From NCBI GenBank assembly GCA_016177735.1, contig JACOUS010000003.1, positions 1-64,000 of the forward strand: a stretch of 64,000 bases of DNA, written 5' to 3'. A program made the position numbers and the translations under genes. The notes beneath the pieces are model-generated. The model was given only the letters and a program-made list of their open reading frames with translations, had not been told where the DNA came from and made no database searches. Every line of letters starts with the position of its first letter. Positions within the stretch are counted from its first letter, which is position 1. Shown one piece after another: positions 12,373-16,236 of the stretch. This DNA is from Ignavibacteriales bacterium (GTDB taxonomy: Bacteria > Bacteroidota > Ignavibacteria > Ignavibacteriales > Melioribacteraceae).

Positions 12373-13167
12373 CTAAAAATCTTTTATTTCGTACTCGCAA
12401 AGAGTGTTCAAAGAATCGTTCACTACAAAAACTTTGTTCATTTCAGGATTCACCGCAATTCCCTCGGCTTTTGTAAACGGCAGATCAAAAATTTCAATTA
12501 CATTTTGTGAAAACGACCACGCATAGATTGCTTTGCTTTCATCGCTCAAGAAAAAGTAAATATCGTTTGTGCGGTTGTACGAAATATCAGAAAGGTCTTT
12601 CGCAAAATTTATTTCAAGCTGATCTTTGATTGTTAAATCCGTGTTCAATCTAATTAATGCCGCCGGATTTTTTTCGTTCACGAGATGAATATTTCCGCTG
12701 ACGTCAACATAAATTCCTTCAAACCCATTGTTCGGATTATCCGATTGAGCAAATTTCTTTTTGGTAATAACGTTTCCGTTTTGATCAAGGTGAATGACGC
12801 TGTGAAGTTCTTCTTCAACAACCCACAAAGTTGAATCGCGGTAGTCAAAAGCGATTCCTTCCAAATCATTGCCGAGATAACTTAATTCTTTCAACACATT
12901 GCCTTGTTTATCTATCTTATAAATTTTTTGAGATGCGCCGCCGACAATCCATAAGGAATTGAACGACTCATCGAAACAAATTCCGGAAGGCTCTTCGATA
13001 GCTAAATTATACGAAGCGGATAATTTTATCTCAGGCTTTTTCTCCTCTTCTTCATTTGGTGATTTACATCCGGCAAAAGTGATAAAGAGAAATATTATGC
13101 TGGGAAGAAAGATTGTGTATTTCAAAAAGTTACTCTTTGCGGCATGGAATTTAACTGCTCTGTTCAT
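12373..13167 (-). CDS. SdiA-regulated-like (YjiK) beta-propeller lipoprotein
   Basis: The 264-residue protein has a lipoprotein leader ending ITFAGC. It then carries NHL/SdiA-regulated-type repeats: EPSGICFDESFNSLWIVGGA, LEGIAFDYRDSTLWVVEEE, GFEGIYVDVSGNIHLVNEKN and AEGIAVNPEMNKVFVVND. The recurring G-I-x-x-D followed by lW/vvVe is the hallmark of PF06977. Such six-bladed propellers bind or hydrolyse esters or act as scaffolds. It is the last gene of the HlyD/VTC/DUF4956 operon and overlaps the DUF4956 gene by 17 bp, so it is probably translated with it. Confidence 0.8.
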   Translation of the reverse strand: MNRAVKFHAAKSNFLKYTIFLPSIIFLFITFAGCKSPNEEEEKKPEIKLSASYNLAIEEPSGICFDESFNSLWIVGGASQKIYKIDKQGNVLKELSYLGNDLEGIAFDYRDSTLWVVEEELHSVIHLDQNGNVITKKKFAQSDNPNNGFEGIYVDVSGNIHLVNEKNPAALIRLNTDLTIKDQLEINFAKDLSDISYNRTNDIYFFLSDESKAIYAWSFSQNVIEIFDLPFTKAEGIAVNPEMNKVFVVNDSLNTLCEYEIKDF

Positions 13168-13822
13168 CGAAGAATAAATTTATTCGTCCCATCCCGTCAA
13201 TTTTTTTCAACTCTTCAACGAAATGCGTGCTCGAAATTTTATTTTTGAGACGGATGTGGTATGTGTACTCAATTCCCTTTGCATCGCTGGTACGTAAATT
13301 TATCATATCAAATTGGCGGCAGAAGGTGCTCAAAATTTTTTCGTGATGATCCGGTTGTGCGTTTTCGGTTACATAATTGAATTGAAGCATGTACTGCATT
13401 GTGCGAAAGAGTGAGAAGCTTGTTTTAGAAAAGAGATAAAGTATTGCGCTGATAATCAGCGTGCCGATTATTGCAACTTTGTGGTAACCAACTCCGGCTG
13501 CCATCCCTATTGCCAACCCGAGAAAAATGTAAACGATATCAACCGTATCTTTAATCGCAGTTCTAAAACGGATTATCGAAAGTGCACCCACCAAACCGAA
13601 CGCTCTTGCCAGATTGTTCCCGATTACCATTATCACGAGGGCTGTTATTACGGAAAGATAAATTATCGAATTAACAAAACTATCCGAGAAGCCGGGTCCC
13701 TTGTAAGTTATTCTGTAAATCATCGAAACAAAAAAACTGCAGACCAAGCCGATAAAAATATTACCGACGATTTCAATTACCGACGGCGGAAATACATTTA
13801 CAAACTCAAGATTCTGCGGCAT
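13151..13822 (-). CDS. DUF4956 membrane protein
   Basis: The 223-residue protein matches the DUF4956 layout: an N-terminal TM (VGNIFIGLVCSFFVSMIYRI), TMs around YLSVITALVIMVIGNNLARA and YIFLGLAIGMAAGVGYHKVA, the highly conserved loop FGLVGALSIIRFRTAI, then a cytoplasmic C-terminal domain of about 90 residues with a ferredoxin-like strand pattern. In many bacteria DUF4956 genes lie next to VTC-type polyphosphate polymerase genes, as here (14 bp gap). A membrane channel or scaffold role for the polymer is inferred. Function is not established. Confidence 0.88.
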   Translation of the reverse strand: MPQNLEFVNVFPPSVIEIVGNIFIGLVCSFFVSMIYRITYKGPGFSDSFVNSIIYLSVITALVIMVIGNNLARAFGLVGALSIIRFRTAIKDTVDIVYIFLGLAIGMAAGVGYHKVAIIGTLIISAILYLFSKTSFSLFRTMQYMLQFNYVTENAQPDHHEKILSTFCRQFDMINLRTSDAKGIEYTYHIRLKNKISSTHFVEELKKIDGMGRINLFFDEQSS

Positions 13823-13836
13823 TACTTTTCCGTTTC

Positions 13837-14571
13837 TTATAATGAAATATTTGGATAAAATTTTTTATTGATTCTGTGTTCATCAACGCAGATGGTGTAT
13901 TTGGAAATTGCCTCGCGCTGAAGTTTATATTTATTGATAACTTGCGGCACCCAGTACGGAAGCACTTTGTAATATTTTATTTCGAGCACAAAAAAATTAA
14001 CAAGCGAACGCTTCCATTTCTCTTCGGAGAAAAGCATGTCTGTTGAATGAACAAGCGAGCTTCTCAAATTTTTGTCGAACGTAACGCGCAAGTTTGAACC
14101 GAGCGCGCATGTGAAAGCTTCTCTTTCGTAAACAACAAGAACAACCGGCTGCAATCCGTAGCCGTTGAAATAGTAAAGAAAATTTTTTGCGCTTTTGTAC
14201 TGCCCGTTTTGAAAATCCGATTCGTCAATATCCGATGATAAAAGAAAATCATTCACATTTTTGAATAGGAGCAGAGCGCGGTCTTTCGAAACGTACTCGG
14301 CGTCTTTCCGTTTGATTTCAAGAAATGTATATGAATTTTCATCAACGGAATTGTAACCTCTGATGCGGAATTTGTTTCGGATTTTTAATCCGGCAATTTT
14401 TTCGTAATAAGATTTTAGCGAAGGAGTATCAAGGTAAATACTTCGTACCGTATATTCTTTGTCCGGCTGTGAAGCTGTGTGCGGATCGTAATTGAGATAC
14501 GGGGAAATTTCGTTTCGTAAACCTTCCAGTTTTTCAACCGGTACTAAATATTTATACTCGATTCTCTGCAT
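13837..14571 (-). CDS. VTC-domain polyphosphate polymerase
   Basis: The 244-residue protein is a single VTC tunnel domain (CYTH-like triphosphate tunnel fold) without an SPX domain. Tunnel residues seen are R43 (VRSIYLDT), R69 and R71 (KFRIRGYN), E85 and K87 (FLEIKRKD), K96 and R98 (SKDRA), R150 (VYEREAF), R162 (LRVTFD), E197 and K199 (VLEIKYY) and K224 (AISKY). These correspond to the arginine/lysine lining and metal glutamate of yeast Vtc4, so the catalytic set looks complete. It should make polyphosphate from ATP. Its start overlaps the HlyD stop by one base (TAATG), implying translational coupling. Confidence 0.88.
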   Translation of the reverse strand: MQRIEYKYLVPVEKLEGLRNEISPYLNYDPHTASQPDKEYTVRSIYLDTPSLKSYYEKIAGLKIRNKFRIRGYNSVDENSYTFLEIKRKDAEYVSKDRALLLFKNVNDFLLSSDIDESDFQNGQYKSAKNFLYYFNGYGLQPVVLVVYEREAFTCALGSNLRVTFDKNLRSSLVHSTDMLFSEEKWKRSLVNFFVLEIKYYKVLPYWVPQVINKYKLQREAISKYTICVDEHRINKKFYPNISL

Positions 14572-15629
14572 TATTCTGTAATAAACTTTTCAAAGTGCTG
14601 CCACGGCGTCAGCGGTTCCAGAACAATATCGCTCTTTATTACCATCCCCGGCACAAGTTTTTGATTTTTGTTATGAACCAAAACACCGAGAAACAAAACT
14701 TGTTCGTTGTTCAGTATTTTTACTTCTTTAGTTACTGAAAGAAGTTTACCCGAAAATTTTTTAGCCGGAGTTTCAAGCAGTAATTTTAATGAGTCGCCGA
14801 TGCGGAAATTTCCGGCTTCGTTTACTTTTATCGGAATGTTCAATACAACGTTTTCGATATTCAAAACCGTGAGCAAAGTGTCTTCCGATAATGTGGGCGA
14901 AATGATTCCGTCTATCGGAGAAACAATTGCGAGTTTGGAATTACGGTCTTTCAAAAAATTCAGTTCGGTGTTCAAAGCATCTATGTTTGAATTGAGCAGA
15001 TTAATCTCTTCGGATTTAACTCCCGTTGTCAACGCTTCAAGCTGTGATCTGTAAATATTCTCTTCGATCTCGCTCAGTTTCAATTCCCATTTCTGTATAT
15101 CGAATTCTTCTTGAGAAATTAATCCTCTCTCAAACAATTGTTCTTTCCGCAGAAACAAATTTTTATTTTCGTTCACTTTTTCTTTTGAGTAATCGAGACG
15201 GGTTTTTGCTTCTTTAATCAGAGCATCTTTCTCGCCGGTGCTTTGCGAATGCAAGGCGGCTCTCGCAACGGCAAGTTTTCCTTCTGCAAGCATTATTCTT
15301 TCACTAATTTGACTTGAATAAATTTTTGCAATTGTATCGCCGGCGGTAAGTTCGCTTTTGCCTTTTACTGATGCGGCAATGCTGAATGACACCGTTTCGC
15401 CTCTATCGAATTGTGTTATGTCGAATTCGTTCGGTCCGCCGGAAGTAAAATCAATCAAGTTGGAAATTATTTGCCCGTCTGTCCCTTTGCTTAAAATCCA
15501 TTTCTGCTGGGGATAAACTTGAGCATAAGAACTCATTTCATAAGGGATGGTGATTAAACTGCTGAAGAAAAGTAACGGAAATGCAAACGCAGTTAATCCG
15601 AATAAAAATAGTAATCTGACTCTTTTCAT
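14571..15629 (-). CDS. HlyD-like membrane-fusion protein heading the VTC operon
   Basis: The start ATG 15629 is preferred over an in-frame TTG at 15647. An N-terminal TM anchor (LLFLFGLTAFAFPLLFFSSL) is followed by a half-lipoyl strand region (ELTAGDTIAKIYSS), a long alpha hairpin of about 110 residues (KLAVARAALHSQ to LEALTTGVKSEEINLLNSNI), the second lipoyl half (KLAIVSPIDGIISPT) and a beta-barrel domain. This is the periplasmic adaptor layout of HlyD/EmrA. No ABC transporter or outer-membrane channel is adjacent; instead it is coupled to VTC and DUF4956. A role in moving polyphosphate or another polymer across the envelope is inference. Confidence 0.85.
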   Translation of the reverse strand: MKRVRLLFLFGLTAFAFPLLFFSSLITIPYEMSSYAQVYPQQKWILSKGTDGQIISNLIDFTSGGPNEFDITQFDRGETVSFSIAASVKGKSELTAGDTIAKIYSSQISERIMLAEGKLAVARAALHSQSTGEKDALIKEAKTRLDYSKEKVNENKNLFLRKEQLFERGLISQEEFDIQKWELKLSEIEENIYRSQLEALTTGVKSEEINLLNSNIDALNTELNFLKDRNSKLAIVSPIDGIISPTLSEDTLLTVLNIENVVLNIPIKVNEAGNFRIGDSLKLLLETPAKKFSGKLLSVTKEVKILNNEQVLFLGVLVHNKNQKLVPGMVIKSDIVLEPLTPWQHFEKFITE

Positions 15630-15873
15630 TTTTTTGTTAAAGAGCAAAAGTAGTTGATGAAGTATGTGTGATGTTGTTTATCCAATTCCCGGTTGAAAAA
15701 TAGTAAAAAGTCCTCTTTAATGTTTGTTATATTTGTATTGATAAAAGAACACCGGTGAAGTCGAAGAATCGCTCACACGGACTCTCTTTTAATAGAATCA
15801 AAATTCTTATATTTGCCCCAATTTCTTTTCCATTTTTTGTTTTAAACAAACACGATCATGAGCAGAAGGAAAT

Positions 15874-16236
15874 ATGCCGGTTAAAATTGAGAAGCCGACA
15901 GTTATTGAAGCCGCCGGTAACAAGCCAAAAATTATTGAAGAGTATATCGGCAGAGTAAATTCGGGCACGAGTGATGTGAGTATTGCAAGAATGAAAAGTC
16001 CGGGCGGATGGATAGAGCCGGGACAAACACCGGAGTTTGATGAATACACAGTTGTGTTGAAAGGTATGTTGAGAGTTACATCAAAAGATTCTGTAAATGA
16101 TATAAACGCCGGCGAAGCAATTATCACAAAGAAAGGCGAGTGGGTCCAGTACAGCACTCCGAATCCCGAAGGTGCGGAGTATGTTGCTGTTTGTCTTCCG
16201 GGCTTTTCACCGGCAATTGTTCATCGTGATGAATAA
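15874..16236 (+). CDS. Cupin-domain protein
   Basis: The 120-residue protein is a single cupin barrel. The first motif region reads PGGWIEPGQTPEFDEYTVVL and the second GEAIITKKGEWVQYSTPNPE. The first motif has E and E/Y where the usual H-x-H lies, so canonical metal binding is doubtful and a binding role without metal is possible. The termini SPAIVHRDE and GFSPA are typical of small cupins annotated near amino-acid metabolism. It has no leader. TATATTTG occurs twice upstream (15728, 15808), matching the Bacteroidota -7 consensus, without a convincing -33 partner. Confidence 0.8.
   Translation: MPVKIEKPTVIEAAGNKPKIIEEYIGRVNSGTSDVSIARMKSPGGWIEPGQTPEFDEYTVVLKGMLRVTSKDSVNDINAGEAIITKKGEWVQYSTPNPEGAEYVAVCLPGFSPAIVHRDE

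Follow-up and report, generated by a model that had tools for sequence, protein, structure and literature searches.

A VTC operon and its setting

In the window, the whole 64-kb stretch of DNA analysed here, we found four minus-strand genes packed into one operon, which encode a periplasmic adaptor, a VTC-domain protein, a DUF4956 membrane protein and a propeller lipoprotein (Table 1). The spacing given in an earlier note on this DNA is exact by the ORF coordinates: the adaptor and VTC genes overlap by 1 base, a 14-bp gap separates the VTC and DUF4956 genes, and the DUF4956 and lipoprotein genes overlap by 17 bp. The adaptor ORF also has an in-frame TTG at 15647. On the lipoprotein side the operon is closed off by a convergent histidine kinase gene, 3 bp from the end of the lipoprotein gene; at the other end, beyond a spacer of about 230 bp, a divergent gene (15874-16236, plus strand) encodes a small cupin. 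We found no convincing promoter in the upstream region (15648-16236), and the promoter and terminator scan gave chance-level signals only. No anti-phage defence model matched the locus.

Table 1. Features of the operon and their positions in the window
Feature	Position	Strand	Remarks
HlyD/EmrA-type periplasmic adaptor, 352 aa	14571-15629	-	single N-terminal TM anchor; ATG start
RxxxLxxxxxxS (RLS) TolC-docking motif in adaptor	15114-15149	-	R161, L165, S172
VTC-domain (triphosphate tunnel) protein, 244 aa	13837-14571	-	cytosolic; Vtc4-like catalytic set
DUF4956 protein	13151-13822	-	MgtC-like membrane helices; C-terminal ACT/ferredoxin-like domain
DUF4956 R-F-R	13562-13570	-	two invariant Arg (R85, R87); end of third predicted helix
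SdiA-regulated/phytase-like propeller lipoprotein	12373-13167	-	accessory

Within the window, there is no TolC-family gene in the operon, no CotH gene adjoins the VTC gene, and no ABC, RND or MFS inner-membrane pump lies next to the cassette, where DUF4956 holds that place. The same genome carries two more VTC copies, both with CotH nearby. The third copy (L050, C20:5000-19000) has the order DUF4956-CotH-VTC and sits in a polysaccharide-type cluster with Wzy ligase, C-methyltransferase and FemAB-like genes; its VTC protein is strongly diverged (branch of 4.3 in the VTC tree). Ppk1 is also encoded in this genome, so the VTC system is an addition and no replacement. We rejected replacement of Ppk1 more generally: 40 of the 42 VTC genomes in our phylum sample, this one included, have a listed Ppk1 match or are absent from the list of genomes that lack Ppk1, a list from which four lacking genomes are missing.

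The VTC protein and its membrane partner

The VTC protein matches Pfam PF09359 with an E-value of 1e-42 (146.8 bits against a curated cut-off of 23) and consists of a single VTC domain of 244 residues with no TM segment, no SPX domain and no Vtc1-type TM domain. When we searched the PDB sequence set with a profile of 53 VTC proteins, only Vtc2/3/4 matched (best 2.1e-22), and a Foldseek search with the AlphaFold model (pLDDT 94.5) returned Vtc4 at 2.8e-15 compared to 2e-7 for CYTH enzymes. From the profile-PDB alignment we mapped residues to yeast Vtc4 and found that R3 corresponds to R196, E5 to T198, K7 to K200, R69 to R264, R71 to R266, K87 to K281, K96 to K294, R150 to R361, R162 to R373, E197 to E426, K199 to K428 and K224 to the catalytic K458. 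Across 140 homologues, conservation at these positions is about 92-100%, except at the E5 position, which is acidic in 139 of 139 sequences (E in 123, D in 16). The earlier note had called the tunnel residues complete; all those it named are present and near-invariant among the 140 homologues except R43, found in just 109 of 139, and its list left out K7, K96 and R98. R65 and K67 are basic residues conserved here and absent from yeast.

In Vtc4, basic residues that guide the chain replace the glutamate patch of TTM phosphatases, and K458 both matters for polymerases and marks them (PMC4641920). At the positions of the TTM-phosphatase acidic patch, the VTC protein has basic R3, K199 and K96 and acidic E5, which aligns with acidic-patch Glu-4 of the phosphatase AtTTM3 by equivalences that we infer. 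Judged from sequence, R3 and K199 would fit a polymerase, with E5 as a retained acidic position. Profile, fold and conserved residues thus agree with the earlier assignment of a Vtc4-like polymerase domain. In the literature that we searched, we found no bacterial VTC protein that had been assayed biochemically.

The near-invariant E5, within an RxExK motif, speaks for a different activity, in which the cargo of a tripartite system would be some other polymer, phosphorylated or anionic, or a surface-polysaccharide precursor, and the VTC protein would phosphorylate or cleave it. The same alternative draws on the VTC-DUF4956-CotH genes in Gram-positive Pel polysaccharide loci (PMC7112168), on the Wzy and methyltransferase genes beside the third copy and on the DUF4956-adaptor operons without VTC described below. 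However, K458 and the chain-guiding basic residues of Vtc4 (R3, K96, K199) are kept, and both fold and sequence are nearest to Vtc4 and not to CYTH phosphatases; we consider this alternative unlikely.

The second protein matches DUF4956 (Pfam PF16316, 4e-14), and its AlphaFold model (pLDDT 83) has about five predicted helices followed by a C-terminal beta-alpha-beta-beta-alpha-beta domain, for which the top Foldseek matches are weak hits to RelA-type ACT domains (E 4e-3). The window protein scores 21.5 bits against MgtC (PF02308), under the curated cut-off of 31.4, while 13 of 50 DUF4956 relatives match that model at E<=1e-3 (best 8e-6), and it matches the NCBIfam model NF007431 at 1e-8. The only residues that are invariant in the family alignment are R85 and R87. 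DUF4956 had no match among PDB sequences, a search of the viral structure library returned no useful match, and the sequence and Foldseek searches found no solved structure that supports a channel. These weak profile and fold matches suggest that DUF4956 is a membrane protein of the MgtC type that ends in an ACT-like domain, and a streptococcal protein of the same locus type has been independently described with MgtC and ACT domains (PMC12345266).

This likeness to MgtC (PF02308 in 13 of 50 relatives, NF007431 at 1e-8), the weak RelA-type ACT matches and the action of Salmonella MgtC on ATP synthase and PhoR, as cited in a passage of PMC12345266, could also point to a phosphate- or ATP-sensing regulatory unit, in which DUF4956 inhibits or senses, polyphosphate (polyP) stays inside the cell and the adaptor belongs to another transporter. 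We regard such a unit as improbable: most diderm loci have the adaptor in the operon and monoderms lack it, DUF4956, adaptor and TolC occur together even where VTC is absent, and the cassette has no ABC or RND pump.

Conservation of the cassette and its candidate outer-membrane partners

To follow the neighbourhood beyond the window, we used a phylum sample of 247 genomes, 42 of which carry VTC, and examined 60 loci. In 57 of the loci DUF4956 is no more than two genes away from VTC, and in 37 the adaptor is; DUF4956 is found in all 42 VTC genomes. In a wider scan of 80 loci, we found DUF4956 in 77 and the adaptor in 69. Since the 53-sequence VTC alignment was too diverse for a locus scan, a closer sequence set was used as query and the 80 loci were picked by similarity to the window VTC, which skews them towards close relatives (VTC identities with the window copy of 39-55%); in part they overlap the 60-locus set. 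They come from Ignavibacteriota, Bacteroidota, Zixibacteria, Calditrichota, KSB1, Latescibacterota, Neomarinimicrobiota, Krumholzibacteriota, Eisenbacteria and others. The cassette has more than one gene order, HlyD-VTC-DUF4956 as well as VTC-DUF4956-HlyD. The conserved neighbourhood that the earlier note had proposed to look for thus recurs in both sets, and these counts argue against an absence of conserved linkage and bear out DUF4956 as the constant membrane partner of VTC.

Operon proximity by itself proves no function, and the window copy has neither a TolC nor a CotH neighbour, so the genes might simply be co-transcribed with no common function. The linkage counts contradict this, as does an HlyD-VTC-DUF4956 order that is found in about ten phyla at 39-55% VTC identity in the 80 closest loci, and we consider it very improbable.

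The propeller lipoprotein belongs to a known family (SdiA-regulated, Pfam PF06977, 2e-20). The earlier note had counted it as a core part, a role that we reject because just 7 of 60 and 11 of 80 loci have an SdiA-regulated gene no more than five genes away from VTC; it is an occasional accessory only. In the VTC tree, the window copy falls among Melioribacteraceae/Ignavibacteria sequences. Adaptor linkage is clustered on this tree (11 changes compared to 31.7 in shuffles) and has no single simple origin.

The window adaptor has no Pfam match; it is diverged, matches NCBIfam periplasmic-adaptor models, and its family profile matches EmrA/MacA/AcrA structures (best 2.6e-19). The RxxxLxxxxxxS motif is the TolC-binding motif of adaptors (PMC3391258), and in the adaptor family we found R in 110, L in 98 and S or T in 81 of 111 sequences. 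A TolC/OEP gene lies beside five VTC cassettes (L054, L152, L159, L175, L195). Chloroflexi are monoderm, and none of eight monoderm loci with VTC-DUF4956 (six Gram-positive, two Chloroflexi) has the adaptor; the two Chloroflexi VTC proteins are nested inside an adaptor clade of the VTC tree. The RLS motif, the TolC genes in several operons and the absence from monoderms are in line with the earlier proposal that the adaptor extends the system across the periplasm.

Diderm loci that lack the adaptor often have DUF2490 (13 of 60) or an OprO/P-type porin. A separate Bacteroidota clade has VTC-DUF4956-DUF2490 and no adaptor (L074, L075, L094-L096, L098-L101, L103, L105-L107), and DUF2490 may be the outer-membrane part there. 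In L083, L084 and L112, DUF4956 lies ahead of a Porin_O_P-type (OprO/P) gene, in one case slightly under the cut-off, and CotH; DUF4956 occurs in these loci with or without VTC, and L083 and L084 also have a PAP2 phosphatase.

DUF4956-adaptor operons also occur without VTC (L108-L110, L118-L121, L111, L117, L203), so the exporter may carry another substrate. The Hymenobacter plasmid locus (L203) has adaptor-DUF4956-TolC, with TolC assigned by Pfam. Several of these operons have a third gene of about 410 aa with no Pfam match except in Hymenobacter; the protein is OMF-like by inspection alone, and the OEP model had been seeded with it. In the L108-type operons a short-chain dehydrogenase comes next. 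In L115 (6419-8871) and L116, DUF4956 is followed by a CotH-like looking protein with no Pfam match and a metallophosphoesterase-like protein.

CotH kinases and proposed polyphosphate export

We found CotH in 41 of 42 VTC genomes compared to 54 of 205 others (Fisher 4e-19, a P value that ignores shared ancestry). Type IX secretion was considered as a confounder and rejected: among SprA-positive genomes the association persists, with CotH in 41 of 41 VTC genomes and 53 of 149 others (1e-15, again ignoring shared ancestry). In 25 of 60 and 21 of 80 loci, CotH is no more than five genes away from VTC. It is also present in Gram-positive plasmid loci with VTC-DUF4956, in published Pel loci (PMC7112168) and in C. 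perfringens loci. In C. perfringens NELoc-2 (CP4_0460-0465), membrane proteins named "tubulin/FtsZ GTPase" lie beside VTC (PMC2879425); from their size, membrane localisation and position, these are probably misnamed DUF4956 proteins. The co-occurrence with CotH suggests that exported polyP serves surface phosphorylation.

In yeast, the VTC complex makes polyP in the cytosol, beside its membrane part (PMC9911596). The cassette resembles yeast Vtc4/Vtc3/Vtc1 in the residues and fold of the catalytic tunnel domain and in the presumed synthesis beside a membrane partner. Unlike the yeast proteins, the bacterial VTC protein lacks SPX and Vtc1-type TM domains and has RxExK in place of RxTxK, a separate protein, MgtC-like, serves as its membrane partner, and an adaptor/TolC extension is added. 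CotH, polyP polymerase and DUF4956 have been described as accessory genes in Gram-positive Pel loci (PMC7112168) and as SIR_1592-1594 (PMC12345266). That module likewise pairs VTC with an MgtC/ACT-type DUF4956 and has CotH near; in contrast to the window cassette, it is monoderm with no adaptor or TolC reported, and it sits in Pel loci, of which none was recognised among the present loci without a dedicated Pel search. As in EmrA/MacA/HlyD-TolC exporters, the RLS adaptor is anchored in the inner membrane and some loci have a TolC-family gene, but the inner-membrane component is apparently DUF4956 and not an ABC, RND or MFS transporter. DUF4956 shares with MgtC/SapB the helix pattern, a C-terminal ACT-like domain and weak profile matches, and differs in scoring under the Pfam MgtC cut-off and in its VTC/adaptor/CotH context. 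Ppk1 would share the presumed product, polyP, with the cassette but is an unrelated protein encoded elsewhere in the same genome. What is new is thus the adaptor/TolC form and its breadth; VTC-DUF4956-CotH was known before in Gram-positives, with no function assigned. The roles that the earlier note gave to VTC, DUF4956 and the adaptor have comparative support, that of the lipoprotein does not, and CotH, the MgtC/ACT architecture and the Gram-positive Pel precedent had been overlooked.

Taken together, the linkage, the Vtc4 residues and fold, the MgtC/ACT architecture, the RLS adaptor and its absence from monoderms support a synthesis-coupled polyP exporter of the Gram-negative envelope, a reading that we hold to have about an even chance of being right. 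Cytosolic VTC would transfer the ATP gamma-phosphate to a growing polyP chain within its beta-tunnel, like Vtc4, and pass the chain to DUF4956, whose ACT-like domain probably regulates in place of eukaryotic SPX domains. The HlyD-type adaptor would link DUF4956 to a TolC-family channel, and by this docking the polymer is proposed to exit across both membranes. Outside, secreted CotH-family kinases and proteins of the cell surface would most likely use polyP as a phosphoryl donor or bind it as a ligand. The structural reading, with a VTC enzyme, an MgtC-like membrane partner and a TolC-type adaptor, is well supported; synthesis and export of polyP, a conduit role for DUF4956 and use of the product by CotH are our inferences. 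The near-invariant acidic E5, the DUF4956-adaptor operons that have no VTC and the lack of an encoded energised pump count against the polyP exporter. The fullest version, a widespread bacterial machine in which ATP-driven polyP synthesis itself drives the chain out by way of an MgtC-like channel and TolC, and surface polyP is the phosphate donor for secreted CotH kinases, seems doubtful to us.

Several bacteria carry extracellular polyP. To our knowledge, no dedicated bacterial polyP exporter has been described and the extracellular phosphate donor of CotH is unexplained; our literature search for bacterial polyP export gave nothing. If the exporter reading is true, a conserved polymerase-membrane protein-adaptor-TolC cassette would be a dedicated bacterial polyP exporter and a second bacterial polyP route beside Ppk, and it would provide a phosphate source for secreted kinases, CotH among them. 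It also gives a testable role to DUF4956 and bacterial VTC proteins, which have so far been annotated by name only.
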